Assembly: GCA_009885845.1 (NCBI GenBank)
Contig: VFJW01000033.1
Coordinates: 62,001 to 126,000 of the forward strand
Origin: Geobacter sp.
Lineage (GTDB): Bacteria; Desulfobacterota; Desulfuromonadia; Geobacterales; Pseudopelobacteraceae
Direction: 5' to 3'
DNA: 64,000 nt
Shown here piece by piece: positions 3,438 through 36,256 of the stretch (positions within the stretch are counted from its first letter, which is position 1; each line of letters opens with the position of its first letter). A program made the position numbers and the translations under genes. A model generated the notes under the pieces. That model was not told the DNA's origin and ran no database searches. It worked only from the letters and a program-made list of their open reading frames with translations.

Positions 3438-3743
3438 CTACTTGCCGAATGCGGTCAGCAGTTGCTGCAGAAGTTGCGGTGCATTTGATTTAATGGCGCC
3501 CCCCATGAAATCCATAATTCCGGGGCGATAGCCGTCATGCCAGATTCTGTTAAACATCTCGCTGCTGGTTTTGCAGACGCAATCAGCATCTTCAACTGTT
3601 TTGCCCTCCTCAACCGTGCACCCTTCGTTATCCAGAGTCAGTGTCTTCCTGATGTCGTCGATTACAAAATAAAACGTCGTCGGAACGGTAAAGACTCCCT
3701 TTTGATAGCTATCCTGTAATGTACTGAAAATTTCTTCCTGCAT
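3438..3743 (-). CDS. SCP2 sterol-binding-domain-like protein
   Basis: MQEEIFSTLQDSYQKGVFTVPTTFYFVIDDIRKTLTLDNEGCTVEEGKTVEDADCVCKTSSEMFNRIWHDGYRPGIMDFMGGAIKSNAPQLLQQLLTAF resembles the SCP2 fold family. Internal start MQEEIF preferred over the ORF-track start. Confidence 0.65.
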   Translation of the reverse strand: MQEEIFSTLQDSYQKGVFTVPTTFYFVIDDIRKTLTLDNEGCTVEEGKTVEDADCVCKTSSEMFNRIWHDGYRPGIMDFMGGAIKSNAPQLLQQLLTAFGK

Positions 3744-3782
3744 GCGAGACCCCCTCCGGTTTTTTAAAATGGCCCGACAAAA

Positions 3783-3812
3783 TTGAAGGCGGAGCCGAAG
3801 CTCCGCCTTCAA
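3783..3812 (-). terminator. intrinsic terminator hairpin downstream of the lipase gene
   Basis: Perfect 13-bp stem TTGAAGGCGGAGC-CGAA-GCTCCGCCTTCAA; on the minus strand a UUCG loop followed by a short T-run (AATTTTG). Confidence 0.7.
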
Positions 3813-3836
3813 TGGCAAGGTACGGCAATATCCTGT

Positions 3837-6269
3837 TTAGTATCCGAGTATATTCGCTACAGGTGGAAACATAATTTCCTGTGTTAGCGGAGAGCCTGTG
3901 TACGCTCTTTTGGCCAACGGACCTGCCGTAGTTGGATCAATAACCACGCCTTTGGACAGAAACGCCACCATTTGAGACTGGGCGAGTACTGTATTTGCCG
4001 GCGTAGCGAAATCAATCAGGAAGCCATGTCCAACGCTAGTGCCGGTGCCGTCCAGCTTGAACTGGAAATATCCTTCGGCAGGTGTAGCGCCAGCTACAGC
4101 CTGATCCCTTGCAAAATCAACCTTTGCTGTAAGGGCTCCATCGACAACACCCCCTGTACGAGTGTACATGAATAAAGCTGGAAGCGTAGTATCAATATAT
4201 TTAAGCTGACTGAAGCCCGGGGCAATCGCCAGTGCCGCAGCAGTGTTAAGAATTCCGCGTCCGCCGAGGGCATTGCCTAGGTAACGTGTGTTTTCATTTG
4301 GAATGACCAGGTCACCGACAGCTTCCTGAATGGCAATACGGCCTGACAAGCGTGAAGGAAGACCTTCGGCGAGCGGAGTAGTCATTGACGCAGGATCCAC
4401 CGTATCAGTTATGCTCTGGGTTACGAGGAAAAACTGATTGTACGTTACCGTTCCGGCTGCGATCCCCTTAGCAGCCAAACCGGCATTTATGCTGGTGCTG
4501 AACGCAGGACTATCCTTCAGAAGGTATGCCAGTCGGCCACCAGGGACACTCATGAAACCTTTCATGTCAGAATTCAGAGTGGTTTGGGTATATGGCGTTC
4601 CGCTTGTTGCGAGAGACGTATTTCCAGCCAGATAGTAGGCCCCGACAATTGATCCGAGGCTGAGGCCAACGTATTTTGGTTTTACAGTGGTTCGGTTAGG
4701 GGCATCGGCTCCCGCTGTTCCCAATCCGGCGAAGCCACCTCCGATCAGAGTAAGTTCAAGACGGTGGAGGTTGAATGCAGCCTGTTGTACATTGGACCGA
4801 GTTGCAAGCGGGGCACCTACAGCCATGAAATCCTGCCCCCATAGCGTCCCGGTCGTGTGCCCACTGACAGCTAATGCACCGTGAAGAGGAAGATCTATGG
4901 CAATAACTGCATATCCTGCTGCCGTGAGCGAACCCGCAACGGCAATGGCCTGCTCCTTCTGCCCAGTAATCCCGTGCTGAAACATCACTAATGGCCATCC
5001 ACCGGCCGGAGCAACACCGGTCGGCACGATGTAAACAAACGGAATAGTTGTTGTCGAATGATAATAACCGGTCAAATTGCCAGTTCCGTCACGGAAAGAT
5101 TGTACTACACCGGCGGCGGGATTAAATGCCGGCAATCCGCCGAGCGTGATTCCTGTCAGATCAATGCTTGCAGCATTAGCCTTTGCCACGACCGGGTCTA
5201 TCGAAAGCTGGGCACTGTTAAAGGTCCCGTTATAAACGCTACTGACAGAAGCAGGTGCTGATGTTGCTGAGCCCATAACACCGGTCCAGTAAGCATCTGG
5301 CGATGGATTTGTGCCGAGTCTGTCAAAAGTAGCGGTTACTGTGGAGCTGTTAGCCCAGGTTTTACCAGTAAAACCACCAGGCAGACCACCGGCAGCAAAG
5401 GCCCGCAGGGCACTTTCAACCGGCATCATGGTGCCGATTGCGTCTTTGGAAACAAACCCTGCCCCGGAGGTTATAAATCTTCCCATGAGCGTGATATCAT
5501 CCCGACTGGTAATAGTCGTGGTTGCCGAAGCCGTAATCAGATCGTCCATAACCTTGGTATAACCGGACAGTTTGATATTAGCTCCGCTCATGGCATTAGC
5601 GCGGATTGGTTCTAAAGCTGCGAATGGGCCGACAAGCTCAAATTTGGATTTGAGATATTTGAAATAGTACGAGTTATCAAACGATTTACCATTGGTGTCA
5701 TGTACCCTGTTGGTTACGACATACATATAGCGTGTTGCCGGAGATAACGGGAAGTTCGGGAAGAGAAATACATCAGTGCTTCCAGCGGTATATTTGATTG
5801 TAAACATTCCTGAAATATCTTTGAAACCAAGCGGACCGTTTTCAAAACTTGAGCTGCTGGTGGTATCCGGAGTCAACTGAAAGACTTTGACGTTGGCTGT
5901 GGTGAGCGTAGCAGCATCAACTGCGCTGGTAAATCTGATGTAAATAGGGGCATTCAGACCCGAGACAGCATGGGTAGAAGCCATTTCATATTTATTGACA
6001 TATGCCAGGGCCTCCGCCGGATTCATCGGAGTATTAGCCGGCCGGGCAACGTAGTTGCCTGATGAATCTTTATACTGGGTCAGCGGATCTTTGGCCGAAG
6101 CGGTGGCAAGAACGTTCGGCAGCGGAACCTCACTTGTTTTCGGGTCGAAAATCGCCGAATTTCCGGTGTCAGTGCTGGCAGTATCGAGTCCGGACGGATC
6201 CGGGGCGGAGCATCCCACCGCCAGTAAGAAGCTGATATATATCAGAAGTCGCATAATACGTGCATTCAT
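3837..6269 (-). CDS. surface lipoprotein lipase, Pla-1/cef / VolA-like family
   Basis: Lipobox-like LLAVGCSA near the N-terminus (start MNARIM), Big-like N-terminal region, nucleophile elbow GLSLGS, oxyanion region VMFQHGITG. Confidence 0.75.
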   Translation of the reverse strand: MNARIMRLLIYISFLLAVGCSAPDPSGLDTASTDTGNSAIFDPKTSEVPLPNVLATASAKDPLTQYKDSSGNYVARPANTPMNPAEALAYVNKYEMASTHAVSGLNAPIYIRFTSAVDAATLTTANVKVFQLTPDTTSSSSFENGPLGFKDISGMFTIKYTAGSTDVFLFPNFPLSPATRYMYVVTNRVHDTNGKSFDNSYYFKYLKSKFELVGPFAALEPIRANAMSGANIKLSGYTKVMDDLITASATTTITSRDDITLMGRFITSGAGFVSKDAIGTMMPVESALRAFAAGGLPGGFTGKTWANSSTVTATFDRLGTNPSPDAYWTGVMGSATSAPASVSSVYNGTFNSAQLSIDPVVAKANAASIDLTGITLGGLPAFNPAAGVVQSFRDGTGNLTGYYHSTTTIPFVYIVPTGVAPAGGWPLVMFQHGITGQKEQAIAVAGSLTAAGYAVIAIDLPLHGALAVSGHTTGTLWGQDFMAVGAPLATRSNVQQAAFNLHRLELTLIGGGFAGLGTAGADAPNRTTVKPKYVGLSLGSIVGAYYLAGNTSLATSGTPYTQTTLNSDMKGFMSVPGGRLAYLLKDSPAFSTSINAGLAAKGIAAGTVTYNQFFLVTQSITDTVDPASMTTPLAEGLPSRLSGRIAIQEAVGDLVIPNENTRYLGNALGGRGILNTAAALAIAPGFSQLKYIDTTLPALFMYTRTGGVVDGALTAKVDFARDQAVAGATPAEGYFQFKLDGTGTSVGHGFLIDFATPANTVLAQSQMVAFLSKGVVIDPTTAGPLAKRAYTGSPLTQEIMFPPVANILGY

Positions 6270-6369
6270 GGCATTTACCTCTCTCGTTGGATAGTAATAT
6301 CGGTTTTTCAGCCGTTGCGCCAAAACCTGAATCTGTCAGGCGACACCCGGACATTCAAAGGGCACCTCG

Positions 6370-7704
6370 TTAAAACTTAACGGTAATTGATGCGCCGAAA
6401 AGATGCACATCACTCTTGAACGTGCCGTTCTCTCCGTAAAGAGTCGTCATGTCCTGATTATTAACCGTTCTATCCTTGAAGTGTGTCCACATATAGGCAA
6501 GATCAACCGAAAAATGTTCGCTGTGGATTCCTTGACCGACACTAAAGCTGATGCGGTCGGAGTCGGGCAATAGCGGCCCGAGAGTGGAATCAGGAATCGG
6601 GTTTTGGTCGTACATGAATCCTGCCCTGAGATCCAGATGTTTACTGTACGCGTATTGAGCGCCGATTTTGTAGCACCAGACATCTTTCCAATCGAGCGAT
6701 TTCGGTTTGTTATTGAAATTGGTAAACTGCGTGCTGGCGAATTTGAACTCCAGATTTTTCATTGTACTCCAGTAAGTTTGCTCGGCATCAAGTTCCAGTG
6801 TGAGCTTCTCGATCGGTTTCCAGGCTCCGCCGAGACTCAGGCTGGCTGGAAGATTTATATCCGCCGTGACGGACGAGACTGCGCGGGATCGGGAATAAGG
6901 CGATGATGCGCTGGTGGTCATCCCGATAGTGTCAAAACCTGCGGGTGTCGTTGCATTGAAGTTGGCAGTGCCGGAAACTTTGAGCTTGATCTCGCTCCGG
7001 TACGACGCCCCGAATGAGAGAGCTGGCAGCGGTTTCCAGAGAAGACCGCCGTTCCATCCGACATCGGTGGCAGTCCCGTCAAGCCCCATGAGGCCAAGTT
7101 CATAGGCAGAATTGGTTCCTGTCGCTCCGGCAGTATTAGGCGCTGTTTGCATGGTAACTATTGCATGGGTAACATCAAGTCCCACAGCGACTCCAAGGTT
7201 CAGGTCATCAAATCGATACGCTACCGTAGGTTGGAAGTTTATCGGTTTAACCGCGATGTTCATAACCTGGTTACGAAACGCACTGCTGTCATCCCAGCTT
7301 TTGGCCAGGGGATAAATTGAGTTGATCGCAAATCCCAGGGAGAGCGGCGCACCTTCAAATGAATGAGTGAGATACGTGGTTGGAGCGATAAAAATATCAT
7401 TTTTGGCGTTTTCAGACACCGAAGTGGAACCGCCATTACCGCTAAGGGGAGTTGTGCCGGTGAACTCGGTAGAGGGCACATAGATAATCGTTGAACCGAG
7501 ACTGAACTGCGTCCCTTTGAGGAATGCGATTCCGGCCGGGTTGTAGAAAAGTGCCGAAGGGTCATCGGCCTGTGCGGTAAAGGCATTCCCCATTGACATT
7601 GCCTTTGCTCCCTGCTCATTCACTTTTAAGCCTGCCGCCAGAGCAATGGAAGCTGTCCCTGTCAGAGTTGCCAGCATACACGTCAAAATCAGTTTGTTTT
7701 TCAT
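6370..7704 (-). CDS. fadL: FadL-family outer-membrane long-chain fatty-acid transporter
   Basis: Signal peptide then LKVNEQGAKAMSMGNAFTAQADDPSALFYNPAGIAFLKGTQFSLG, typical of the FadL/OMPP1 family; C-terminal aromatic ...ASITVKF. Confidence 0.88.
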   Translation of the reverse strand: MKNKLILTCMLATLTGTASIALAAGLKVNEQGAKAMSMGNAFTAQADDPSALFYNPAGIAFLKGTQFSLGSTIIYVPSTEFTGTTPLSGNGGSTSVSENAKNDIFIAPTTYLTHSFEGAPLSLGFAINSIYPLAKSWDDSSAFRNQVMNIAVKPINFQPTVAYRFDDLNLGVAVGLDVTHAIVTMQTAPNTAGATGTNSAYELGLMGLDGTATDVGWNGGLLWKPLPALSFGASYRSEIKLKVSGTANFNATTPAGFDTIGMTTSASSPYSRSRAVSSVTADINLPASLSLGGAWKPIEKLTLELDAEQTYWSTMKNLEFKFASTQFTNFNNKPKSLDWKDVWCYKIGAQYAYSKHLDLRAGFMYDQNPIPDSTLGPLLPDSDRISFSVGQGIHSEHFSVDLAYMWTHFKDRTVNNQDMTTLYGENGTFKSDVHLFGASITVKF

Positions 7705-7956
7705 TTCAACACTCCTTTCCGTATGTGTGATCTACGCTTCGCTGCATGTACATCCGAAATGTATCCCTCATGACCTTCGACACGCGTGCGCCTCTTTGGC
7801 GTGCACAAATTGTGGATCACCCCCCATTCATCGGCGCTGACTCTTATTGATAGCATCTCTTAACAAAGATTCCCTGGACACTGTTTCTAAGTAATTGCGT
7901 GCAACCGGGTCTCAAATTTTAATTTTAGAACGGTATTTTTTGACAAGCTATGCCAC

Positions 7957-7974
7957 CTTAACGCGCATGTCAAG
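7957..7974 (-). promoter_or_regulatory. candidate operator/-35 region upstream of fadL: CTTGACATGCGCGTTAAG
   Basis: Minus strand CTTGACATGcgCGTTAAGgtggcATAGC matches the site at 8292-8323 on the plus strand. Confidence 0.45.
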
Positions 7975-8291
7975 AATAAATATGTTCATAACAAATAAAA
8001 AATATAAGGGGGGTAGCCTTCGGGTCTAATATCATCATCCCGGCAGAGTTAAGAAGTCAGTACAATAAATAATCAGCATATAATCGGACTGTTATGAATC
8101 ATTTGATAAACATGCTTTTTGTTGCCCGGAAATTTATCACCGAAAAGTAGAACCCGCAATTGCCCTGATTTGAACGTGCCGATTTTGAATAAGAGGTGAC
8201 TACATACAAACAGATTACCGCCTGTTGCGCTTTCAAAGAAAGGTGGTATGAATATACTTAATAATCCATCAAATCGAAAATAGAATAAAAT

Positions 8292-8317
8292 TATACTTGA
8301 CATGAACGTTAAGTATA
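8292..8317 (+). promoter_or_regulatory. candidate operator overlapping a -35 box upstream of the acyl-CoA synthetase
   Basis: Imperfect palindrome TATACTTGACATGAACGTTAAGTATA containing TTGACA, followed by TATAGC. Confidence 0.5.
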
Positions 8318-8357
8318 TATAGCCTGCTATCACAGATGACATCCAGGAGGTGAATGT

Positions 8358-10169
8358 ATGAGTAACCGGAATTTCCGCTCCATACCAGACATGCTCAGAA
8401 GCAATGCAGCAGTATTCAGCAGCAGGCTCGCCCTCAAATATCGCAAACAGGGCGCCTTTGTTACGCTGACGTACGCGGAGTATTATGAACGGGCGCTTAT
8501 GGTAGCCCGGGGCCTCGGCAAGATGGGTGTCAAGCCGGGCGACCGAATTGCAATCCTCTCGGAAAACCGCGCCGGCTGGGTTATTGCTGATATGGGTATT
8601 TTGTGTACCGGAAGCGCTACGGTGCCGATTTATCCGACCAACACTCCGGAACAGATCGAGCACATGATCAATCACTCGGGAGCCAGGATAGTGTTTGTGT
8701 CCGGAAAGTTCCAATACAGCAAGCTTCTCAAGGTAAGAGAGTCCATTCCGGGATTGGAACTTGTTGTTTCATTTGAACGCTTTCTGGGTGACTCAAAGCT
8801 TCCGGTCACAACCTTCTACCAGCTCTCCGAGATTGATTCTCCCATAACGGCCGAAGAAAAGAAGGAAATAGAGACAGAAATCGACCGGATCAAGCCGAAT
8901 GACATGCTGACGCTGATCTACACATCCGGTACTACCGGCGTTCCAAAAGGGGTCATGCTTTCTCACAACAATATCCTGACCAACACCCGGTATCTGACTG
9001 AGCAGAGCGGTGCGATCGACGAGAACGATGTCCTGCTGAGCTTTCTCCCGCTAAGTCACATCCTTGAACGGACAGCCGGCTACTACATGACCATCCGCAA
9101 TGGCGCTCTGATGGCGTTTGCCGACAGTATCGAAAAAGTACCGGAAAACATGGCTGAAATCAGACCGACCGTCATGGTGAGTGTCCCCCGCCTGTTTGAA
9201 AAAATTTATCACCGGATTTTCGAAAATGCTCACCAGATGTCCCCCGTCAAAAGATCCCTCTTTCACTGGGCGGTAGATATTGGCAAGAAATACGTTGCCG
9301 CAACTTTTATAGACAAACAGCCGCAAACTCTTCTCAACCTTAAATACGCCCTGGCCGACCGCCTGATATTCAGTAAAATAAGAGCCCGATTTGGCGGCAA
9401 CATGAAACTGTTCTGTTCCGGCGGAGCACCACTGGACAAGACGATCAATGAATTTTTCTGGGTGATCGGCATTCCCATTTTTGAAGGCTACGGATTGACT
9501 GAAACCAGCCCGGCCCTCAGCTTCAACAACTTCGAACATATCCGCTTCGGATCGGTTGGCTTCGCGCTGGCTGAGACAGAATTCAAGATCGCTGAAGATG
9601 GCGAGATTCTGGTCAAGGGGCCTCAGGTTATGCTTGGATATTACAACAATCCGACGGCCACAGCAGAAGCGATCCAGGACGGCTGGTTCAAAACCGGAGA
9701 CATCGGACATATCGATGACGGCTTCGTATTCATCACCGATCGCAAGAAAGAGCTGATTATTACTGCGGCGGGAAAAAACATCGCTCCCCAGCCGATTGAG
9801 AACGAACTTAAGATGGACAAGTACGTTTCCTCAGCTTTTGTCTACGGCGATCGAAAACCGTATCTGACCGCTCTGATTGTACCCAACATGGAGCGAATGC
9901 TGGAATTCGCCAAAGAGCAGCATCTCCACTATTTTGAGATGGAAGATCTCGTCAGGAATGAGCATGTTCAGAAATTGTTCGAGCAGCGGCTCACCGATAT
10001 CAACAGCCGACTTGCCCAGTATGAAACAATCAAAAAGTTTGAACTGCTGGCCCATGATTTTTCCATCGAAGGGGGCGAACTGACGCCGACGCTAAAGCTG
10101 AGGCGCAAGATTATTTATGAGAAATACAAGCACCGGCTTGAAGATCTGTACAGTGATCACATCAATTGA
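8358..10169 (+). CDS. long-chain acyl-CoA synthetase (AMP-binding, FadD15-like)
   Basis: AMP-binding motif LIYTSGTTGVPKGVMLSHNN; GYGLTETSP; GWFKTGDIGHID; SD AGGAGG before the ATG. Confidence 0.92.
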   Translation: MSNRNFRSIPDMLRSNAAVFSSRLALKYRKQGAFVTLTYAEYYERALMVARGLGKMGVKPGDRIAILSENRAGWVIADMGILCTGSATVPIYPTNTPEQIEHMINHSGARIVFVSGKFQYSKLLKVRESIPGLELVVSFERFLGDSKLPVTTFYQLSEIDSPITAEEKKEIETEIDRIKPNDMLTLIYTSGTTGVPKGVMLSHNNILTNTRYLTEQSGAIDENDVLLSFLPLSHILERTAGYYMTIRNGALMAFADSIEKVPENMAEIRPTVMVSVPRLFEKIYHRIFENAHQMSPVKRSLFHWAVDIGKKYVAATFIDKQPQTLLNLKYALADRLIFSKIRARFGGNMKLFCSGGAPLDKTINEFFWVIGIPIFEGYGLTETSPALSFNNFEHIRFGSVGFALAETEFKIAEDGEILVKGPQVMLGYYNNPTATAEAIQDGWFKTGDIGHIDDGFVFITDRKKELIITAAGKNIAPQPIENELKMDKYVSSAFVYGDRKPYLTALIVPNMERMLEFAKEQHLHYFEMEDLVRNEHVQKLFEQRLTDINSRLAQYETIKKFELLAHDFSIEGGELTPTLKLRRKIIYEKYKHRLEDLYSDHIN

Positions 10170-10206: not shown

Positions 10207-12594
10207 ATGAAACAGATTAACAAGGTAGCAGTTCTGGGAGCGGGGGTGATGGGGGCGACAATCGCCGCACACCTCGCAAATGCTGGAATTCAGGTACTAC
10301 TGCTCGATATCGTACCGCGCGAGCTGAATGAGGCTGAGGGTGCAACCGGCCTTACGATTGCCGACAGCAGGGTGCGTAACCGTATCGCAGCAGCCGGGCG
10401 GGATGGACTGATGAAGATGAAACCGGCACCGTTCTTTCTTCCTGGCTATGCGGCCAACATCGAGGTCGGCAACTTCGATGATGACATGCCGAAGCTGAAG
10501 GAGTGCGACTGGGTTGTCGAGGTTGTCATCGAAAACATGGCGATCAAGAAGAAACTCTTCACCGAAAAGGTCGTGCCGAACCTGAAAGAGGGTGCGATTC
10601 TCTCAAGCAACACCAGTGGGTTATCGGTTAACGAGATGGCAGAGTGCCTGCCGGAACATGTTCGTGCAAATTTCCTGGTCACTCATTTTTTCAATCCGCC
10701 ACGCTATATGCGCCTGTTGGAGATCGTACCCTGTTCCTACACCGCTCCTGAAGTAACGGCATTTATGGCCGATTTCATTTCCAAACGTCTTGGGAAGGGG
10801 ATTGTCTACGCCAAGGATACTCCCAACTTCATTGCCAATCGCATCGGTGTCTATGCCATCTGTAACTGTATTCGCACCATGATGGAAACCGGTATGACCG
10901 TTGAGGAGGTCGATGCCGTTGCAGGCACAGCAACCGCCCGTCCCAAAAGCGCAGCCTTCCGTACCGCCGATCTGGTCGGTATTGATACACTCCGGCATGT
11001 CGCTGGCAACTCCTACGAACTACTGACCGCCGACGAACAGCGCGACATCTTCAAGTTTCCCGATTTCATTGGCGAGATGGTTGCCAAAGGACTGCTCGGC
11101 AACAAGAGCAAACAGGGCTTCTTCAAAAAAGTAAAGGGGGAGAAGGGGCAGGAGTTCTTCTACTACGATTATACCACCGGTGAATATGCACCCTCGCAAC
11201 GCCCCAAGTTTGCGTCGATTGAAGCGGCAAAGACGATTGATGATCCGGCGAAACGTCTGCAGGCGGTTGTCACCGGAAGCGACAAAGCGGCACAGTTCGC
11301 CTGGACCAACATGCGCGACACATTGATCTATACATTCAACCGGATTCCGGAAATCGCCGATGACATCGTCAATATTGACAGTGCCATGAAGTGGGGCTTT
11401 AACTGGGAACTCGGTCCGTTCGAGATGCTGGATGCAATCGGCGTGGCCTATTTTGTGGAACGGGCCGAAAAGGACGGCGTTACAGTACCAGCCGGACTTA
11501 AAGCCATCGAGCGTTTCTACAAATTCGAGAACGGTCGCAATTACTACTACAGCATTCTTACTAATGAGTACTGTGAAGTGCCGCGAAAACCGGAGCACAT
11601 CAGCCTCTCAATTCTTAAGAGAAACAATAAAGTCGTGGAAAAAAACAGTGGCGCCTCCGTAATCGACCTGGGTGACGGCGTATTCTGTCTTGAGTTCCAC
11701 ACCAAGATGAATGCCATCGGCGGTGAGATTCTCGCAATGACTCACAAGGCGATCAAGCGCACGGAAGAAGAAGGAGTCGGCCTGGTCATCGCCAATGAGG
11801 GGAGCATGTTCTCCGCCGGCGCCAACCTGATGCTGCTGGTAATGGCGGTCGCCGAAGGGGCATATGATGAAATCGCCATGACCGTCAAAAGCTTCCAGAA
11901 AGCGATGATGGCTATCAAATATTCCAAAATTCCGGTCGTGGCCGCCCCGCACCACCTGGTTATGGGCGGCGGCTGTGAGACCTGCCTGCACTCCGATGCG
12001 ATCATCCCCCATGCCGAAACCTACATGGGTCTCGTGGAACTGGGCGTCGGCCTGCTTCCGGCAGGCGGCGGCACCAAGGAGATGGCGGTTCGCGCCATCA
12101 AGCTGGCCGAAGAGTACGAACTGGACGCAACGCCGTTTATCTTCAAGAATTTCATGAATATAGCCATGGCCAAAGTCAGCATGTCGGCTGCCGAACTGAC
12201 GCCGATGGGTTTCATGCGCCAGGGCGACGCTATTACAATGGACATCGACAAACGCATCCATGACGCCAAACTGAAGGCCATTTCACTGGCAGCAAACTAC
12301 CGCCCCGGAAAACCGTTGACCGACCTGAAAGCACCGGGTCGCAGCGTGGCCGCCTCCATCAAGTCACAGCTCTGGAACATGCAGCAGGGTGGTTTTATCT
12401 CCGAGTATGACCAGTATCTGGCCGGCATGGTTGCCGAAGTCATCACCGGCGGAGATGTACCGGCCGGCACCCTGATCACCGAGGAGTACCTGCTGGACCT
12501 GGAACGGGAAGCGTTTGTCCGCCTCTGCGGACAGAAGAAAACTCTGGAGCGGATCCAGCATATGCTCAAGAAAGGGAAACCGCTGAGAAACTAG
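10207..12594 (+). CDS. fadN: 3-hydroxyacyl-CoA dehydrogenase / enoyl-CoA hydratase, FadN-type
   Basis: Rossmann motif VLGAGVMGATIAAHLANAG at the N-terminus, crotonase region ...GLVIANEGSMFSAGANLMLL at the C-terminus; 795 aa with HAD-first domain order. Confidence 0.9.
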   Translation: MKQINKVAVLGAGVMGATIAAHLANAGIQVLLLDIVPRELNEAEGATGLTIADSRVRNRIAAAGRDGLMKMKPAPFFLPGYAANIEVGNFDDDMPKLKECDWVVEVVIENMAIKKKLFTEKVVPNLKEGAILSSNTSGLSVNEMAECLPEHVRANFLVTHFFNPPRYMRLLEIVPCSYTAPEVTAFMADFISKRLGKGIVYAKDTPNFIANRIGVYAICNCIRTMMETGMTVEEVDAVAGTATARPKSAAFRTADLVGIDTLRHVAGNSYELLTADEQRDIFKFPDFIGEMVAKGLLGNKSKQGFFKKVKGEKGQEFFYYDYTTGEYAPSQRPKFASIEAAKTIDDPAKRLQAVVTGSDKAAQFAWTNMRDTLIYTFNRIPEIADDIVNIDSAMKWGFNWELGPFEMLDAIGVAYFVERAEKDGVTVPAGLKAIERFYKFENGRNYYYSILTNEYCEVPRKPEHISLSILKRNNKVVEKNSGASVIDLGDGVFCLEFHTKMNAIGGEILAMTHKAIKRTEEEGVGLVIANEGSMFSAGANLMLLVMAVAEGAYDEIAMTVKSFQKAMMAIKYSKIPVVAAPHHLVMGGGCETCLHSDAIIPHAETYMGLVELGVGLLPAGGGTKEMAVRAIKLAEEYELDATPFIFKNFMNIAMAKVSMSAAELTPMGFMRQGDAITMDIDKRIHDAKLKAISLAANYRPGKPLTDLKAPGRSVAASIKSQLWNMQQGGFISEYDQYLAGMVAEVITGGDVPAGTLITEEYLLDLEREAFVRLCGQKKTLERIQHMLKKGKPLRN

Positions 12595-12721: not shown

Positions 12722-13894
12722 ATGAGAAACGCATATATTCTGGCCGCTTACCGCACTCCCGGCTGCCGTGCAAAAAAAGGAAAATTGAAGGATGTACGCC
12801 CCGACGATCTCGCGGCAGTTGCTATCAAGGGGCTGCTGGATCGAACCGGCATTGACCCGTATGATGTCGAAGACATCATTATCGGTTGTGCTTTTCCGGA
12901 AGCGGAGCAGGGAATGAACTTTGCCCGTGTGGCCGCAATGAAGGCCGGTGTACCGGTCGAGGTACCGGCGCAGACGGTCAACCGCTTCTGCTCCTCCGGC
13001 CTGCAGACGATTGCTACGGCAGCGGAGCGGATCATAGCCGGATTTGCCGACTGTATTATCGCCGGCGGAGCCGAGAGTATGAGTATGATACCGATGGGAG
13101 GAGGCAGATACAGCGCCAATCCGTCACTGATGGCCAGTTGGCCGGAAGCGTTCGCCTCCATGGGTATTACTGCCGAACTGGTCGCTGATAAATACGGCAT
13201 CACCCGCGAACAGCAGGATGTCTTTGCCGCATCCAGTCATGCCAAGGCTGCCGCTGCCATTGCAGCGGGAAAATTCAAGGATGAGATCATTCCGGTGGAA
13301 GTGGAGAACTGTACACTGGTAAACGGGAAAATGAAACGGAGCAAAGGGTTGGTAGATACCGACGACGGTGTACGTGGTGATACCACCGCAGCAGGTCTCG
13401 CAAAACTTAAACCGGCATTCAAGGCCACCGGCACGGTTACCGCCGGCAACACCTCCCAGATGACCGACGGCGCTGCGGCGGTACTGGTGGTCTCCGAGGA
13501 GTATCTCAAAAAAATCGGCAAAAAAGCATTGGCACGCTTCGTCGCCTTTGCCGTTAAAGGGGTGCCACCTGAACTGATGGGGATCGGGCCGGTGGCAGCA
13601 ATTCCGGCAGCTCTGAAAATGGCCGGCCTGACTCTGGATGATATCGGCCTGATCGAACTGAACGAAGCGTTTGCCGCACAATCTCTGGCTTGCGTAAAAG
13701 AGCTTGGCATAGATCCCGCCCGGGTCAACGTCAACGGCGGGGCAATAGCACTCGGCCATCCGCTCGGATGCACCGGCGCCAAACTGACCGCCAGCATCCT
13801 TCAGGAGATGCAGCGCACGGATACCCGCTACGGCATTGTATCCATGTGTATCGGTGGCGGCATGGGTGCGGCGGGAATTTTTGAGAAGGTGTAG
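12722..13894 (+). CDS. fadA: acetyl-CoA acyltransferase (thiolase)
   Basis: Thiolase motifs VNRFCSSGLQTIA, NVNGGAIALGHPLGCTGAK, CIGGGMGAAGIFE. Confidence 0.92.
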   Translation: MRNAYILAAYRTPGCRAKKGKLKDVRPDDLAAVAIKGLLDRTGIDPYDVEDIIIGCAFPEAEQGMNFARVAAMKAGVPVEVPAQTVNRFCSSGLQTIATAAERIIAGFADCIIAGGAESMSMIPMGGGRYSANPSLMASWPEAFASMGITAELVADKYGITREQQDVFAASSHAKAAAAIAAGKFKDEIIPVEVENCTLVNGKMKRSKGLVDTDDGVRGDTTAAGLAKLKPAFKATGTVTAGNTSQMTDGAAAVLVVSEEYLKKIGKKALARFVAFAVKGVPPELMGIGPVAAIPAALKMAGLTLDDIGLIELNEAFAAQSLACVKELGIDPARVNVNGGAIALGHPLGCTGAKLTASILQEMQRTDTRYGIVSMCIGGGMGAAGIFEKV

Positions 13895-13902
13895 CATTTT
13901 CG

Positions 13903-13988
13903 TTGTAGGGGCGGCCCCATGTGGCCGCCCTTGCTGGAAAGACCAACCAAAGTCAAAAGCGGGCGACCACACGGGATCGCCCCTGCAA
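13903..13988. repeat. intergenic palindromic repeat (TTGTAGGGGCGGCC...GGTCGCCCCTGCAA type)
   Basis: Inverted ends TTGTAGGGGCGgcCCCATGTGGcCGCCC ... GGGCGaCCACACGGGatCGCCCCTGCAA between fadA and fadE. Confidence 0.75.
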
Positions 13989-14010
13989 TAAATACAACAG
14001 AGGTGACATC

Positions 14011-15789
14011 ATGGCTGCAAAACTATTCAAAGGTGCTGAATATCTGATTACCGAAGCAGATAAGAACGACATTTTCACTCCCGAAGACTTTACCGACGAA
14101 CAGCGCCAGATCGGCGATACGACCGAGCAGTTCGTTCTCAATGAGGTTATCCCGCATCGCGAGGAGATCGAGCATCACAATCTCCCGCTGACCGTTGAAC
14201 TGATGAAAAAATGCGGAGAGCTCGGGCTGCTTATGATCGATGCTCCCGAAGAGTATGGCGGGCTGGAACTGGATAAAGCCACCAGTATGCTAGCGGCTGA
14301 AAAGCTGGCGCAAGCCGGCTCGTTCTCCGTGACCTATTCCGCCCATACCGGTATCGGCACGCTCCCGCTGGTCTATTACGGGACCAAAGAGCAGAAGGAG
14401 CGGTATCTGCATAAAATCATTTCCGGCGAATGGATTGCGGCCTACTGCCTGACTGAACCAGGTTCCGGGAGCGATGCGCTTGGCGCGTCTGCAACCGCCA
14501 TACTCTCCCCTGACGGCAAGCATTACATTCTCAACGGCACTAAACAGTTCATCACCAACGGCGGCATCGCCGATTTCTTCACGGTGTTTGCCAAGATCGA
14601 CAAGCAGCACTTCACCGGTTTTTTGGTTGAGCGAACGACTGAAGGGCTGAGCGTCGGACCGGAAGAGAACAAGATGGGGGTCAGAGGTTCGTCCACGACT
14701 CAGATCATTCTGGAGGATGCCAAAGTACCGGTTGAAAATCTGCTGGGAGAAATCGGCAAGGGGCACAAAATCGCCTTCAACGTCCTGAATGTCGGACGCT
14801 TCAAACTGGGAGCAGGTGCTACAGGTGCGGCAAAAACCGCACTCACCACCGGCATCAAATATGCCAATGAGCGCAAAGCCTTCGGCGTGACCATCAGCAC
14901 CTTCGGCGCCATCCAGGAAAAGATTGCCGACATGAGCGCAGCCATCTTCGCTTCGGAATCAGTTGTCTATCGACTGGCAGGCCTCATCGACGATCGTCTT
15001 GCCACCCTCCCGAAAGGCACGGATGATTACTACGAAGCCTATCAGCAGGGTATCGAGGAGTATTCCGTCGAGTGCGCCATCGTCAAGGTGCTGTGCAGTG
15101 AGATGCTGGCAGATGTTGTTGATTCTGTTGTCCAGATTCATGGCGGTTATGGCTTCATCCAGGAATACGCTGCAGAGGGATATTACCGCGACGAGCGCAT
15201 CAACCGGATCTGGGAAGGAACCAATGAGATCAACCGGCTGTTGATCCCCGGCATTATTCTCCGGCGCGCCATGAAGGGGGAAATCCCGCTTCAGAAAGAA
15301 GCGATGAAAGCCTTTGAATCACTGATGTCGCCATCTTTTGACGAGTTGGACGATTCTGTTCCCTTTGCAGCTGAGAAAGCTCTGGTCGCCAGCCTGAAAC
15401 AAGCTTTCCTGGTGCTGGCCGGCAGCGGCGTGCAGAAATTCATGGACACGATCAAGGATGAGCAGGAGATCCTGCTGGCCGTTGCGGATCTGGCTATCAA
15501 CATCTTCGCGATTGAAAGCGCCGTACTGCGTGCAGAAAAAATCCTGCCAAAACTGAGCGAGAGCAAAAAGGCCTCCGTCAGCGCCGCCGTGAAGGTGTTC
15601 ACCTTCAATGGCAACGAAAAGGCTGCATCCGCCGCTCGCCGGGCAGCCTACTTCATCGAGGAGGGGGATACCCTGACCATGCTGCTGGCAGGTATCCGCA
15701 GATTCACTAAATACGATGCCACCGGTCTGCTCAAGGCAAAACGTCAACTGGCAGCGGCTTCCATTGAAGCGGATAAGTATATTTTTTAA
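14011..15789 (+). CDS. fadE: acyl-CoA dehydrogenase with C-terminal extension (FadE, Bacillus/VLCAD-like)
   Basis: YCLTEPGSGSDA; catalytic-Glu region INRIWEGTNEINR; start at ATGGCTGCAAAACTATTC after SD AGAGGTGACATC. Confidence 0.88.
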   Translation: MAAKLFKGAEYLITEADKNDIFTPEDFTDEQRQIGDTTEQFVLNEVIPHREEIEHHNLPLTVELMKKCGELGLLMIDAPEEYGGLELDKATSMLAAEKLAQAGSFSVTYSAHTGIGTLPLVYYGTKEQKERYLHKIISGEWIAAYCLTEPGSGSDALGASATAILSPDGKHYILNGTKQFITNGGIADFFTVFAKIDKQHFTGFLVERTTEGLSVGPEENKMGVRGSSTTQIILEDAKVPVENLLGEIGKGHKIAFNVLNVGRFKLGAGATGAAKTALTTGIKYANERKAFGVTISTFGAIQEKIADMSAAIFASESVVYRLAGLIDDRLATLPKGTDDYYEAYQQGIEEYSVECAIVKVLCSEMLADVVDSVVQIHGGYGFIQEYAAEGYYRDERINRIWEGTNEINRLLIPGIILRRAMKGEIPLQKEAMKAFESLMSPSFDELDDSVPFAAEKALVASLKQAFLVLAGSGVQKFMDTIKDEQEILLAVADLAINIFAIESAVLRAEKILPKLSESKKASVSAAVKVFTFNGNEKAASAARRAAYFIEEGDTLTMLLAGIRRFTKYDATGLLKAKRQLAAASIEADKYIF

Positions 15790-27228: not shown

Positions 27229-27627
27229 CTACTTGATCAAATTAAATTCACCGATAATCCTTTGACGATAGGCGGTAATATCTTTTTCAAGCGACTGAAG
27301 TGTAGATACTTTTTGTTTGATGCTTTTGAGGTGGGTGTCCAGCAGCTCGGTCAAACGTGGCATGATTTTTTCCGGAACCTTCTGTTCCTTATCAAAGAGA
27401 ATAGCCAGTTCCTTCATCTCCTCCAGAGAAAGCCCCAGTTCTTTGACTTTCAGGACGAATTTGAAACGCTTTACATCCTTTTTTTCATAATATCTGACCC
27501 GCCCGTCAGTTCGCTTGGGAGGTTCAACCAGGCCGAGTTTTTCATAGAGCCGGATCGTTCTTGTCGTGATCCCCAGCATTTCTGCCAGGTCACTGATCTG
27601 CATATGGTCTTCATTACTCAGCCTCAT
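27229..27627 (-). CDS. MerR-family transcriptional regulator
   Basis: MQISDLAEMLGITTRTIRLYEKLGLVEPPKRTDGRVRYYEKKDVKRFKFV followed by a coiled-coil helix. Confidence 0.9.
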   Translation of the reverse strand: MRLSNEDHMQISDLAEMLGITTRTIRLYEKLGLVEPPKRTDGRVRYYEKKDVKRFKFVLKVKELGLSLEEMKELAILFDKEQKVPEKIMPRLTELLDTHLKSIKQKVSTLQSLEKDITAYRQRIIGEFNLIK

Positions 27628-27825
27628 ACTTTACCCCTGTGTTAATTATTAGTATTTAAAGCCAGGTTCGTTTTTTTGTCAAGATTATTCAACGATTATT
27701 CAACGCATTTCACGCTTTAGTTTGACCATTTCCGCATAAAAATGTGCGTACCCGCATAAGCAATTTGCACTCCGCCGAAACATCGTCTAAACTCCAAAAA
27801 CGTGACAAATGACCAAGGGGTTTTT

Positions 27826-28458
27826 ATGGCTGACCACATACGTCTGGCCGCATGTACGATCTTTGATACCCCATTGCTGAAAACCCTTCTGCATCTCTGT
27901 TCTGTACTCTACCTGAAAGCCGGCGGCTGGACACTAACCGGTGACGTCTCCAACGCGCGGCGCTGCGTGATGATTGCCGCTCCGCATACCAGCAACTGGG
28001 ATCTGCCGATGACACTGGCTATCGTCTTCGCCTTCCGTCTCAAGGTTTATTTTCTTGCAAAACACACTCTTTTTACACCACCGTTCGGACTGTTCGTCCG
28101 TTGGCTGGGCGGCATCCCGGTTGACCGGAGTAAAAATAATAATCTGGTAGAGCAGGCAGTTGAGCTGTTCACTGCTCACAAAGACCTCGTATTGCTTGTA
28201 CCACCGGAGGGGACCCGCAAACAGGTCCGTTACTGGAAAAGCGGTTTCTATCATATAGCCTGCGGCGCCAACGTACCAATTGTGCTGGGATTTATCGATT
28301 TCAAGCGCAAGGTCGCCGGGTTTGGCGACATATACGTCCCGAGTGGTAATTATGACGCAGATCTGGTTCAGATCCAGGGATTTTATGCAGGAATCAGCGG
28401 CAAAAACCGGGCCAGACCGGATGACATGGCCGCCACGAACAACACCGAACCAGAATGA
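27826..28458 (+). CDS. 1-acylglycerol-3-phosphate O-acyltransferase family protein
   Basis: Acyltransferase motifs APHTSNWDLP (HX4D) and VPPEGTRK. Confidence 0.85.
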   Translation: MADHIRLAACTIFDTPLLKTLLHLCSVLYLKAGGWTLTGDVSNARRCVMIAAPHTSNWDLPMTLAIVFAFRLKVYFLAKHTLFTPPFGLFVRWLGGIPVDRSKNNNLVEQAVELFTAHKDLVLLVPPEGTRKQVRYWKSGFYHIACGANVPIVLGFIDFKRKVAGFGDIYVPSGNYDADLVQIQGFYAGISGKNRARPDDMAATNNTEPE

Positions 28459-28475
28459 GAACCGGGCGGACAGAC

Positions 28476-30086
28476 ATGCTGGCAAACACTCAACAAAAGC
28501 TCCCACTGATTATCGGGCATCGCGGCGCATCGCGGGCAGAACTCCTGCAAAGGCTGGATGATCATTCCCGACCCTGGGACATCATTGTAATCGGCGGCGG
28601 CGCTACCGGACTGGGGGCGGCCGTTGATGCGGCCGACCGCGGCTACCGCACGCTGCTGCTGGAACAGGGTGACTTTGCCTGCGGAACTTCGAGCCGCAGT
28701 ACCAAACTTATCCATGGCGGCGTACGCTACCTGCAGCAGGGCAACCTGGCACTCGTTCGGGAGGCGTTGCGTGAACGGTATCTCCTTCTCACGAACGCAC
28801 CGCATCTGGTGCATGATGTTCCTTTTGTCATCCCGCTCTACAGCTGGTGGGAGCGCCCCTTCTACGGTATCGGCATGGCGATGTACGACCTGCTGTCGGG
28901 CCTTCACCGGCTGAAGCATTCCCGGCACCTCAGTCGCGAAGAAACTATTGATCTCGTTCCGACGGTCAGGAGGAGGAATCTTCGCGGAGGCATCGTCTAC
29001 CATGACGGCCAGTTTGATGATGCACGCCTGGCCATCTGCCTGGCGAAAACAGTGGTGGATCTGGGCGGGACTCCGCTCAATTACATGGACGTTACCGGCC
29101 TCGCCCCGGCATCAGAATGTCTGACCACTGTTACTGCCAGAGAGCGTGAAAGCGGCCGGGAATACAAACTCTCCAGCCGGGCGGTTATCAACGCCACCGG
29201 CGTGCTGTGTGACCAGGTGCGGCGAATGGACGAACCGCTCTGTTCTCCCCTGATCACCCTGAGTCAGGGAGCTCACCTGGTTCTCGACCGTTCGTTTCTC
29301 CCCGGAAGCTGCGCGGTCATGGTTCCCCATACCGACGATGGACGGGTCTTTTTCGCGATTCCGTGGCATGGCCGTGTCATTATCGGAACGACCGACACCC
29401 CCGTTGACAGGGTTACGCCTGAACCGGTGCCGTTTCCGGATGAGATTGATTTCCTGCTGGCACATGCGGGACGCTTTCTCGAACGCCAACCGACCCGTTC
29501 CGACATTCTCAGCACTTTTGCCGGACTCAGGCCACTGCTCGGAGGAGAAAGGGGAAAGAAAACCGCACAGCTGAGCCGTGAATACCATCTGTCTGTTTCC
29601 GCTTCGGGGCTCGTTACTATTACCGGCGGCAAATGGACCACCTATCGCAGCATGGCTGCTGTCGCGGTTGATGCTGCTGCCAACCGGGGTGGACTTGATC
29701 CACGTCCGTCGACTACCCGTTCACTGCGCCTGCATGGCTGGGAAGCGCCATTAGTCAAATCGGGCGCACCGGACGGATATGGTTCCGACCGAGGACTGCT
29801 TGAACAACTTGCCGGTGAACACCCGGGGTGGAAAGAGCAGTTGCACCCTCGCCTCCCCTGCACGACCGCTGAGATAATCTGGGCTGTGCGTTCCGAATGG
29901 GCACGAAGCGTGGAAGACGTACTTGCCCGACGTACCCGGTCCCTCTTTCTGGACGCGGCTGCCAGCCGTGAAATCGCCCCCAGGGTGGCCCGCCTGATGG
30001 CAGCAGAACTTGGACGCGATCAAGCCTGGCAAACTGAACAACTGGAACGTATTGACGTATATTCGAGGCAGTTTCTACCGGCCTGA
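28476..30086 (+). CDS. glpD: glycerol-3-phosphate dehydrogenase (FAD-dependent) with atypical N-terminus
   Basis: WDIIVIGGGATGLGAAVDAADRGYRTLLLEQGDFACGTSSRSTKLIHGGVRYLQQ; N-terminus MLANTQQKLPLIIGHRGAS resembles the GDPD family. Confidence 0.9.
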   Translation: MLANTQQKLPLIIGHRGASRAELLQRLDDHSRPWDIIVIGGGATGLGAAVDAADRGYRTLLLEQGDFACGTSSRSTKLIHGGVRYLQQGNLALVREALRERYLLLTNAPHLVHDVPFVIPLYSWWERPFYGIGMAMYDLLSGLHRLKHSRHLSREETIDLVPTVRRRNLRGGIVYHDGQFDDARLAICLAKTVVDLGGTPLNYMDVTGLAPASECLTTVTARERESGREYKLSSRAVINATGVLCDQVRRMDEPLCSPLITLSQGAHLVLDRSFLPGSCAVMVPHTDDGRVFFAIPWHGRVIIGTTDTPVDRVTPEPVPFPDEIDFLLAHAGRFLERQPTRSDILSTFAGLRPLLGGERGKKTAQLSREYHLSVSASGLVTITGGKWTTYRSMAAVAVDAAANRGGLDPRPSTTRSLRLHGWEAPLVKSGAPDGYGSDRGLLEQLAGEHPGWKEQLHPRLPCTTAEIIWAVRSEWARSVEDVLARRTRSLFLDAAASREIAPRVARLMAAELGRDQAWQTEQLERIDVYSRQFLPA

Positions 30087-30110
30087 GAGGCCACCCGAAA
30101 AGGACATACC

Positions 30111-32261
30111 ATGATTTATTCCGCCTATCTTGCCACTGGTCAGATGATTGCCTTCATGGAGGGTCTCTCCAAAATAAATGTCAGGGTCCACGGTCAGGAA
30201 ATGATACCGGACGGTTCAATAATCTTTGTCGTCAATCATTTTACCCGTATTGAAACCCTCCTGCTTCCCTATCACATCCATACACACACTCACGTTCCGG
30301 TCTGGTCGTTGGCCGATCACTCCTTTTTTGAAGGCACTATCAGTGGTTTTCTGGCGAGAATCGGTGCGATTTCAACCAGAGATCCTGACCGGGACCGCCT
30401 GATCGTTAAAACCCTTTTGACCGGCGAAACAGACTGGATCATTTTCCCTGAAGGGCAAATGGTCAAGGACAGGGAGGCCGTCACCAAACCCTCCATCTTA
30501 GGACTGTATCGTGGCAAACAGCGGACAGCCCATACCGGAGCGGCAACTCTCGCGCTGCGCACCGAATTTTATCGTAAACGTCTGCAGCACCTGCTTGCAG
30601 AAAATCCTGCTGAAACGGAACGCTTGCAAAATCTGTTTCAGATCGACGACCTGGAGCCGGTTCTGACCGGAAAAACATGGATCGTTCCGATCAACCTCAC
30701 CTATTATCCGCTCCGGGCACGTGAAAATGTGCTCAGTACCCTGGCTGATCGTTTTGCAGGCAATATTTCTGACCGACTGCGGGAGGAACTTCTGACTGAG
30801 GGATCCATGTTTTTTGAAGGAGTGGATATCGACATCCGCTTTGGTCAGGCCATTCCGGTTTCGGAGTCACTCACCTCCCCCCGGATTATGCAGGACATGT
30901 TTTCCCTGAGACAGATAAATTTTGACGACCAGCTCCCATCCCTCCCGGACATGCGCCAGGAAGCGACAACCCTGATGCACCGTTTCATGGCCGACATCTA
31001 CAGTATGACCACAGTCAATCACGATCATCTTTTTGCATCCCTGCTCAAGTCGCTTCCCTTTAACAGGATTTCCGAAGACGATTTCCGGCGACGTGTTTTT
31101 CTGCTGACCGATCTCGTCCCCGACAAAACACTGGTCTTTTGCCACCAAAGCCTTGAGGTTGGTCAGATTGCCTTGCTGACTGATGACCGCTACCACAAAT
31201 ACCGCGACTTCCTGGAATTGGCCCGGGAAACCGGTGTCGTCCGCTGCGAAGATGGGTATCTGTTCCGGAATAGTGCTCACTTTTCTGCTGAGAGCCAATT
31301 GCACCGGATACGAATCGATAACCCGCTCGGAGTTGCGGCAAATGAAGTACAGCCGCTGTCAGGTCTGAAGCGTCAGGTGCGCTGGATGGCATGGCTGCCG
31401 GAAACACTGGTCCGCCACCGGGTTTCCAAAGTTCTGCAGCGTCAGGCGGCTGATCAATATGAAGCCGACTACGTACAATTCCGTCACCTTGTCGAGTCCA
31501 AAGAGCGTACTGTCGGCGCGCCTTTTTTATTGAAGGGGACTTCACGGCAACTTGGCATCGTATTGGTACACGGTTTTCTGGCGGCCCCGCTCGAGATGAG
31601 AGAGCTTGCCGACTATCTGCACGGCAAAGGATATTGGGTATACTCTGTTCGTCTCCGAGGACACGGGACTTCTTCTGAAGACCTTGCCACACGGGTCGGG
31701 AGCGACTGGACTGAGTCGGTTGACCTCGGCTATGCATTGATAAACAGTATATGCAGACGGGTTGTGATCGGCGGGTTTTCTTTTGGCGGCGGACTGGCGC
31801 TGGACAGTGCCACCCGCATTTCCGGTTTGGCCGGAGTTTTTGCGGTTTCACCACCTTTTCGCCTCCGGGATCTGTCAACTCACTTCGCAGCGGCAGTTGC
31901 CACCTGGAACAGTCTCATGGACACAATGAACTTCCACGGGGCGGAAAAAGAATATATTGAACACATCCCGGAACATCCTCTGATCAACTATACGCGGATT
32001 CCGGTAGCGGCACTGACGGAACTGGAGAATTTCATGAGCGATCTTGAATCGCGACTGGCGAATGTGACGGTGCCGACCCTGGTTGTGCAGGGTCTCGGGG
32101 ATCCGGTGGTCCGTTCTGATGAAACAGCGCGTACGTTTGATCTGCTCGGAGCGGAACAGAAGCGGTATCTGCCCCTCGACTTCAATCGGCACGGAATACT
32201 TGCGGGGGAGGGTTCAGAGAAGGTTCATGCGGAGATTGCAGCATTTATTGCCGGGCTGTGA
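30111..32261 (+). CDS. PlsC-like acyltransferase / alpha-beta hydrolase fusion
   Basis: N-terminal VVNHFTRIETLLLPY and IIFPEGQMVKD; C-terminal GIVLVHGFLAAPLEMRELADYLHGKGYWVYSVRLRGHG and nucleophile elbow GGFSFGGGLAL. Confidence 0.82.
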   Translation: MIYSAYLATGQMIAFMEGLSKINVRVHGQEMIPDGSIIFVVNHFTRIETLLLPYHIHTHTHVPVWSLADHSFFEGTISGFLARIGAISTRDPDRDRLIVKTLLTGETDWIIFPEGQMVKDREAVTKPSILGLYRGKQRTAHTGAATLALRTEFYRKRLQHLLAENPAETERLQNLFQIDDLEPVLTGKTWIVPINLTYYPLRARENVLSTLADRFAGNISDRLREELLTEGSMFFEGVDIDIRFGQAIPVSESLTSPRIMQDMFSLRQINFDDQLPSLPDMRQEATTLMHRFMADIYSMTTVNHDHLFASLLKSLPFNRISEDDFRRRVFLLTDLVPDKTLVFCHQSLEVGQIALLTDDRYHKYRDFLELARETGVVRCEDGYLFRNSAHFSAESQLHRIRIDNPLGVAANEVQPLSGLKRQVRWMAWLPETLVRHRVSKVLQRQAADQYEADYVQFRHLVESKERTVGAPFLLKGTSRQLGIVLVHGFLAAPLEMRELADYLHGKGYWVYSVRLRGHGTSSEDLATRVGSDWTESVDLGYALINSICRRVVIGGFSFGGGLALDSATRISGLAGVFAVSPPFRLRDLSTHFAAAVATWNSLMDTMNFHGAEKEYIEHIPEHPLINYTRIPVAALTELENFMSDLESRLANVTVPTLVVQGLGDPVVRSDETARTFDLLGAEQKRYLPLDFNRHGILAGEGSEKVHAEIAAFIAGL

Positions 32262-35400: not shown

Positions 35401-36169
35401 AACCCTTCTTTGCGCTGTCGCAGAGCCGTTTGGGAACAAACAGATTGTGGAAATCCTGCCCGATAATCTCAGCAGTAGAACTGCCGAACATTTTCTCCGC
35501 GGCAGCATTGCAGAATGTTACCGTTTCGCTGTCATCCATCATGATAATCGCGTCAACAGCCATTTCCGCCAGACGATACATCCGCTCTTCACTCACCCGC
35601 AGTGCATCCTCTGCCAGCTTGCGCCTCGTTATGTCGATCAGGGCGCATCGGCACTGCTGCCCCTGATCAGTCGCCTTGGCTTCAATCTGCAGGACAAGCG
35701 AAAGTTTTCCTTTACTGAGGAGCGCCACCTCACAGGACTCCTTGCGTTGACTGTGAAATACCGTTCCGAGGAAGGCGGCGAACGCGGGACGATATTCTTG
35801 CGCAACGAACTGTCCGAAACGGGCGCCGATCAATCGAGAACGCACCCGCCCCAGAAGAGTGGCGCCGCTGAGGTTCACGGAGCAGATGACGCCGTCGAGA
35901 TCGAGCGTGGCGTAGCCGACCGGGGCAAAGTCGTAGAGATCAGTGTAGTTTTCCAGAGCCCGCTCCACTTCGTCCCGCGCCTTGCGGAGCTCTGCGTTCT
36001 GTATCTCCAGCTCAATCTGGTGAACTTCAAGCTCATGTACCAGCTTCTTCATGGCATCGTCAGTCCGGACAGGAAGCAATTCGTGCACCTGTGCACCAAG
36101 CCGCTCTTCCGCAGTGCGCCGCAAATCGGATGCATTTTTCATGAGGTTTTTCACAGTGCTGTTTTTCAT
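32450..36169 (-). CDS. multi-PAS diguanylate cyclase
   Basis: N-terminal coiled coil and PAS domains, five near-identical PAS units, another PAS, then IVARIGGDEFAVLLPESG. Confidence 0.9.
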   Translation of the reverse strand: MKNSTVKNLMKNASDLRRTAEERLGAQVHELLPVRTDDAMKKLVHELEVHQIELEIQNAELRKARDEVERALENYTDLYDFAPVGYATLDLDGVICSVNLSGATLLGRVRSRLIGARFGQFVAQEYRPAFAAFLGTVFHSQRKESCEVALLSKGKLSLVLQIEAKATDQGQQCRCALIDITRRKLAEDALRVSEERMYRLAEMAVDAIIMMDDSETVTFCNAAAEKMFGSSTAEIIGQDFHNLFVPKRLCDSAKKGFDRFRAEGTGPFIGKRNEVSALRKDGTEFPMELSVSALTIKGKRHAIGIMRDVSERKQLETEIQNAREYAENIVETVREPLVVLNSDLKILTANHSFYETFKVTAHETIGNFIYDLGNRQWDIPKLRVLFEEILPHDTVFNGYEVEHDFPGIGRKTILLNARQIFREDIASRIILLAMEDITARKLLEVEIQDALEYAENIVETVREPLVVLNSDLKIITANHSFYETFRVTPRETIGNFIYDLGNRQWDIPKLRVLFEDILPHDTVFNGYEVEHDFPGIGRKTILLNGRQIFREDIGSHIILLAMEDITARKQLEAEIQIAREYAENIVETVREPLVVLNSDLKVLTANHSFYDTFMVTSEDTIGNFIYDLGNRQWDIPRLRVLVEEILPQDTVINGYEVEHDFPYIGHKSILLNARQIFRDNIGSRIILLAMEDITARKQLEAEIQIAREYAENIVETVREPMVVLNSDLKILTANHSFYETFKVTSEDTIGNFIYDLGNRQWDIPRLRVLVEEILPLDTVINGYEVEHDFPGIGRKTILLNARQIFRENIGSRIILLAMEDITARKQLEAEIQIALEYAENIVETVREPLVVLNSDLKILTANHSFYETFKVTPEETIGIFIYDLGNRQWDIPRLRVLIEEILPLDTVINGYEVEHEFPGIGRKTILLNARQIFRDNIGSRIILLAMEDITARKLAEERISEVIRQQQAILNNIPNIAWLKNKEGMYVAVNDPFCNELGVTPQDLIGKSDYDIYPHELAEKHEKDFNDVIVSGNRTYFEEYVVDREGKVNYVEKIKTPIFNDSGAVIGIIGIVHDITTRKEIEMTLRHDNTHDALTDLYNRAFFDEELERFAHSRMFPVSIVMADVNGLKTVNDTLGHDAGDSLIRLAARIIVTVFRAEDIVARIGGDEFAVLLPESGSDVAEEAVERIRNCPEITSGSVSIAFGIATAENMDQLAKALKLSDERMYQDKSAQKECGKDV
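33314..35233 (-). repeat. five 384-bp in-frame tandem repeats encoding PAS domains
   Basis: Marker string GCGGGCGGTrATATCCTCCAT recurs at 33314, 33698, 34082, 34466 and 34850 (384-bp period); the fifth unit ends at 35233, where GCGTTCGCTGACATCC begins. Confidence 0.95.
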
Positions 36170-36256
36170 CGCCGCCCTCCTGTCTGGTACCAAAATCCGG
36201 GAACCGCTGTTTTTCCCGCACCGTTCCGTTTCCTACCGGTATCCGGCGCCATGTGC

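Follow-up and report, generated by a model that had tools for sequence, protein, structure and literature searches.

A predicted operator-promoter element and a candidate MerR-family regulator at a divergent fatty-acid uptake and β-oxidation locus of Geobacter

Results and discussion

Two divergent gene units for fatty-acid uptake and β-oxidation

The 64,000-nucleotide stretch of Geobacter sp. DNA analyzed here (the window) contains two gene units that diverge from one intergenic region. The left unit, on the minus strand, begins with the gene of a fadL-type outer-membrane transporter (6370..7704(-); PF03349, E 9.7e-69), followed by a putative lipase gene (3837..6323(-)) and a gene encoding a small protein (3438..3818(-)), the latter two being syntenic in relatives. 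The putative lipase bears only a weak resemblance to the VolA/Pla-1 phospholipase family, as its match to TIGR03502 (E 1.1e-43, 149.6 bits) falls far below the curated cut-off of 383.9, and "SCP2-like" is our own label for the small protein, for which a Pfam search returned no match. The right unit, on the plus strand, begins with a fadD-type acyl-CoA synthetase gene (8358..10169(+); PF00501, E 1.6e-81) and continues with genes for a FadB-like 3-hydroxyacyl-CoA dehydrogenase/enoyl-CoA hydratase (10207..12594(+); identified by Pfam, with NF052272 at E 2.3e-175, below its cut-off), a FadA-like thiolase (12722..13894(+); Pfam Thiolase_N and Thiolase_C, with TIGR01930 above its cut-off) and a FadE-like acyl-CoA dehydrogenase (13921..15789(+); NF058590, 862 bits against a cut-off of 600). 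The PF03349 and PF00501 matches confirm the initial annotation's identification of the genes that face the two copies of its motif as fadL and an acyl-CoA synthetase gene.

That motif, CTTGACATGNNCGTTAAG, is present in both arms of the locus as had been claimed: a pattern search of the window finds CTTGACATGCGCGTTAAG at 7957-7974(-) and CTTGACATGAACGTTAAG at 8296-8313(+), each with 0 mismatches. No other exact match exists in the 3,269,673 bases of the genome, where the runner-up has 2 mismatches. Matches with 3 mismatches in the same genome mostly lack a consistent gene set in the contexts viewed and, save for C55:2225 and C55:12120, are taken as chance occurrences. Across 76 family genomes, matches with at most 1 mismatch number 63, against 14 for a reversed-pattern control. 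When the genome is searched with a sequence-only profile of 55 sites, the fadD-side site scores E 1.6e-7 and the fadL-side site E 2.0e-6, values flattered by the presence of both window sites in the training set. The same pair of sites is found again in the orthologous divergent fadL/fadD loci of relatives. Conservation in orthologous intergenic regions, a check that the initial annotation had proposed, is evident in an alignment of 21 such regions, in which identity reaches 0.89 at the fadL site and 0.85 at the fadD site against an overall mean of 0.45.

Each site overlaps a predicted promoter with a fixed geometry

An alignment of 64 sites, with 23 entries before fadD, 25 before fadL and 14 before EMO-like genes, reveals an imperfect palindrome, CTTGACATGnnCGTYAAG, that overlaps the -35 element TTGACA and is centered 2 bp downstream of it. 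TTGACA is invariant and the right arm, CGTYAAG, nearly so, an invariance partly built in for the letters of the original motif, since the sites were gathered at ≤2 mismatches to it. The 17-bp spacer and the -10 element that follows, beginning with TA at motif positions 24-25 in at least 62 of the 64 sites, lie outside the search pattern and are thus not a product of site collection.

On the fadL side, the predicted operator (7957..7974(-)), identified by exact match, conservation and profile, contains the -35 element at 7973-7968 and is followed, 17 bp after that element, by a predicted -10 element TAGCTT (7945..7950(-)) whose TA occupies motif positions 24-25. Downstream, in the fadL leader, AAATACYGTTCTAWAATT (mRNA sense; window 7919-7945) is conserved after the predicted -10 element in many relatives. 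The fadD side has the same geometry, with the predicted operator (8296..8313(+)) lying within TATACTTGACATGAACGTTAAGTATA, the -35 element at 8297-8302 and a predicted -10 element TAGCCT (8320..8325(+)) again 17 bp beyond it. Just upstream of the fadD -35 element, the A/T-rich AAAATAGAATAAAATTATA (8277..8295(+)) resembles an UP element and may act as one; it falls within the most conserved stretch of the 21-region alignment (~0.93 identity). Two details of the initial annotation change on this reading. The distance from TTGACA to ATAGC is fixed, as noted there, but ATAGC makes more sense as the beginning of a weak -10 element than as part of the motif, and the second copy does lie in TATACTTGACATGAACGTTAAGTATA, which is an imperfect rather than a true palindrome. 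A simple sigma-70 consensus scan lists neither the fadL-side nor the fadD-side promoter, because their -10 hexamers match the consensus only partly.

In classical MerR activators, the promoter spacer is 19-20 bp long and the operator is centered 7-8 bp from the -35 element (PMC5045206). The 17-bp spacer and 2-bp offset found here therefore suggest a site geometry that fits repression by a bound regulator.

Strong sites adjoin genes of acyl-CoA metabolism

At E ≤ 1, the profile returns four matches in the genome: the two window sites, a third site on another contig (C55:2217) and a weak MerR2-type site (C55:12112), the first three of which belonged to the 55-site training set. They adjoin fad genes, an EMO-like gene and DUF6125/mutase-like genes, the last two labels being assigned from sequence. 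The third site precedes an EMO/EtfD-like gene, whose EMO label derives from domains matched in the protein of a relative and passes no NCBIfam cut-off. EtfD-type proteins connect electron-transfer flavoprotein (ETF) to menaquinone (PMC13083937). In a search for the motif at random loci, another check put forward initially, strong sites occur almost only before fadL, fadD, EMO/EtfD-like and related acyl-CoA genes, and this distribution supports the proposal of a dedicated regulator with a lipid regulon.

A MerR-family protein is a strong candidate for the regulator

Which regulator binds had been left open among TetR, GntR and MerR candidates, and comparison with relatives most probably points to MerR1, a 132-residue MerR-family protein encoded in the same window (27229..27627(-)), ~19 kb from its predicted fad targets. 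We reached this candidate by way of a relative in which a site is divergent to a MerR-family gene; the window protein is 86% identical to the product of that gene. MerR1 matches Pfam MerR_1 (E 8.3e-19, 67.9 bits against a cut-off of 21.6) and MerR-DNA-bind (E 2.5e-10) and contains no cysteine. Own-genome candidates were compared within the MerR family, of which only four MerR_1 proteins were found. In many relatives, the merR1 ortholog closes the fad cluster; at five loci (L224, L226, L231, L232 and L240), merR1 stands divergently beside a strong site that precedes the EMO-like gene.

Co-occurrence agrees with this synteny. A strong site (best profile E ≤ 1e-5) is present in 24 of the 28 genomes with MerR1 and in 1 of the 48 without it (Fisher 1.3e-14), and FadB in 26/28 and 2/48, respectively (Fisher 8.6e-16); both tests take the genomes as independent, although these are metagenome assemblies for the most part and close relatives of one another, and the association partly reflects shared ancestry. 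MerR1 was called present at ≥66-68% identity, a threshold well clear of the next matches, which lie at ≤46%. Sites, conservation, promoter geometry, co-occurrence and synteny are in this way all computational observations. Named records of MerR1 orthologs come nearly all from Geobacteraceae/Desulfuromonadaceae metagenome assemblies, with one isolate, Geobacter argillaceus, whose ortholog is 73% identical and has no strong site within the 20 kb around its gene.

A paralog, MerR2, is encoded elsewhere in the genome (G000:C39:15158-15532(-)) and is 33-40% identical to MerR1. Its predicted operators share with those of MerR1 the scaffold, promoter geometry and acyl-CoA targets but differ in consensus, GTTGACATGnACGTAAAC, which describes 20 MerR2-type sites hand-picked by context. 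In relatives, such sites lie before operons of the thl-hbd-crt-bcd (butyrate) type and divergent to merR2 itself. Own-genome examples are G000:C55:12120 and G000:C39:23632, before a DUF6125/mutase-like gene pair and between liv-type ABC and enoyl-CoA hydratase/acyl-CoA dehydrogenase genes (labels from sequence). The two regulator genes are neighbors in four relatives (L198, from the same genome as L241; L222; L227; L228), an arrangement that looks as if it arose by tandem duplication. We tentatively propose, as a possibility that we would not yet favor, that MerR2 and its sister operator control short-chain acyl-CoA genes, so that chain length would be split between the two regulators, with the ETF:menaquinone branch in the same circuit.

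Weighing alternative explanations of the sites

MerR1 could instead be a classical activator that twists promoter DNA at these sites, as most characterized MerR-family proteins do, and the operator does lie partly between the -35 and -10 elements (PMC5045206). We regard this as unlikely: with one or two exceptions, the aligned sites have a 17-bp rather than a 19-20-bp spacer, the operator center is 2 bp and not 7-8 bp from the -35 element, and MerR1 has no cysteine ligands. Still further from probable is a view of the motif as conserved promoter sequence with no operator in it. TTGACA is indeed the sigma-70 -35 consensus, yet CGTYAAG is nearly invariant within the spacer, a stretch whose sequence sigma-70 does not depend on, and the motif recurs at unlinked sets of genes from a single pathway, its occurrence following that of a regulator gene.

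A different regulator, such as MerR2 or a TetR-type protein, might bind the sites, with MerR1 a mere syntenic passenger, an account that we consider about as improbable as activation by MerR1. It draws on the close similarity of MerR2-type operators and on exceptions to the pairing of MerR1 with sites. Two genomes retain good fadL sites, G043 (L172:4970; PWM 35.4) and G045 (L173:5100; PWM 35.5), and no MerR1 or MerR2 homolog was detected in either at E ≤ 1e-4, while G070 has fad sites with a MerR2-like protein only. Among other departures, a strong EMO-type site lies at the end of a contig in G002, which has no MerR1, and G058 has FadB with neither MerR1 nor site; gaps in the assemblies may account for part of these five cases. 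Against the passenger account, strong sites follow MerR1 in the proportions given above, and several genomes have merR1 divergently placed beside a site of the strong type and merR2 beside one of the GTTGACATGnACGTAAAC type.

A proposed model for coordinated derepression by acyl-CoA

We consider it likely that MerR1 binds both operators, represses the fad units and is released by acyl-CoA. Each motif copy would then combine an operator with a sigma-70-type promoter, its near-palindrome covering the -35 element and extending over the start of the 17-bp spacer, where a MerR1 dimer would most likely bind and shut out RNA polymerase. With MerR1 bound, the fadL-lipase unit and the fadD-fadB-fadA-acyl-CoA dehydrogenase unit would be off. 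In the presence of fatty acids, acyl-CoA would probably lower the affinity of MerR1, and the entire route would be switched on together, including the EMO/EtfD-like gene of the third site, whose product would hand β-oxidation electrons to menaquinone. Direct binding, repression, the inducer and the operon structure are the parts of this model that we infer.

The closest functional parallel may be LiuR, a proteobacterial regulator of the MerR family that represses branched-chain amino-acid catabolism (PMC3223726, PMC5343134) and resembles MerR1 in its short length, palindromic operators and acyl-CoA catabolic targets. Our LiuR reference is one Vibrio locus, assigned as LiuR-type by its neighbors only, in which TTTACGTTAACGTAAA lies between a MerR gene and a divergent ivd-like operon. 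TTTACGTTAACGTAAA has the same core scaffold as the MerR1 operator; relative to a LiuR-type core TTnACGTnnACGTnAA, the scaffold is common, whereas the sites here have TTGACA as the left half and C..G as outer bases. MerR1 shares 31% identity with the Vibrio protein, a level not above the 34% that it shares with cadR, and the tree, with its long branches, gives MerR1 no clear place. The targets also differ, LiuR controlling branched-chain amino-acid genes and MerR1 being predicted to control long-chain fatty-acid uptake and β-oxidation. The MerR1 system may thus work like a LiuR system without necessarily being an orthologous one. At four isovaleryl-CoA dehydrogenase loci (H87, H88, H89 and H76), no adjacent gene is annotated as MerR, and a Pseudomonas transcription-factor atlas contains no LiuR.

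Fatty-acid degradation is regulated elsewhere by FadR (GntR family) and by PsrA and FadP (TetR family) (PMC5343134), which control β-oxidation, presumably by acyl-CoA, as is predicted for MerR1, and belong to other protein families. Within the MerR family, CueR, CadR and ZntR are similar to MerR1 in fold and length, and CueR and CadR are among its nearest solved structures. MerR1 differs from such metal-sensing activators in having no cysteine ligands and NCBIfam scores far below the cut-offs. Nor do the predicted MerR1 sites, with their 17-bp spacer and center 2 bp from the -35 element, match the metal, redox or drug activator type. MerR matches on plasmids are mainly cadR, besides a single regulator of a mer operon and a single MerR of Staphylococcus.

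The MerR family is best known for responses to metals, drugs and redox state, and if MerR1 senses acyl-CoA, a lipid signal would be added to its repertoire. The MerR1/MerR2 pair would also offer a small-scale example of how the operators of two related regulators diverge. How Geobacteraceae use fatty acids is of consequence for the turnover of carbon in sediments rich in iron; our search of the open-licence literature turned up no regulator of this use, and the present analysis yields a testable regulator, operator and target list, with MerR1 as a strong candidate answer to the question of what binds the two sites.

The neighborhood of merR1

The window holds no clear operator for merR1 itself, which, like its ~19-kb distance from the predicted targets and the weak -10 hexamers, speaks against the model. 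A weak operator-like sequence, ATTAACACAGGGGTAAAG (27629..27646(-)), lies just before the merR1 start codon and scores below the PWM threshold of 8, and related positions score 12.2 in L185 and 10.9 in L186 (PWM); autoregulation of merR1 through this element is speculative. Divergent to merR1, at 27802-32261, are acyltransferase, glycerol-3-phosphate-oxidase-like and acyltransferase/hydrolase genes that also lie near merR1 in many relatives. They form a possible glycerolipid module, with no strong operator there in the window. At 32450-36193, the window encodes a 1247-residue protein whose translation contains several near-identical consecutive repeats.
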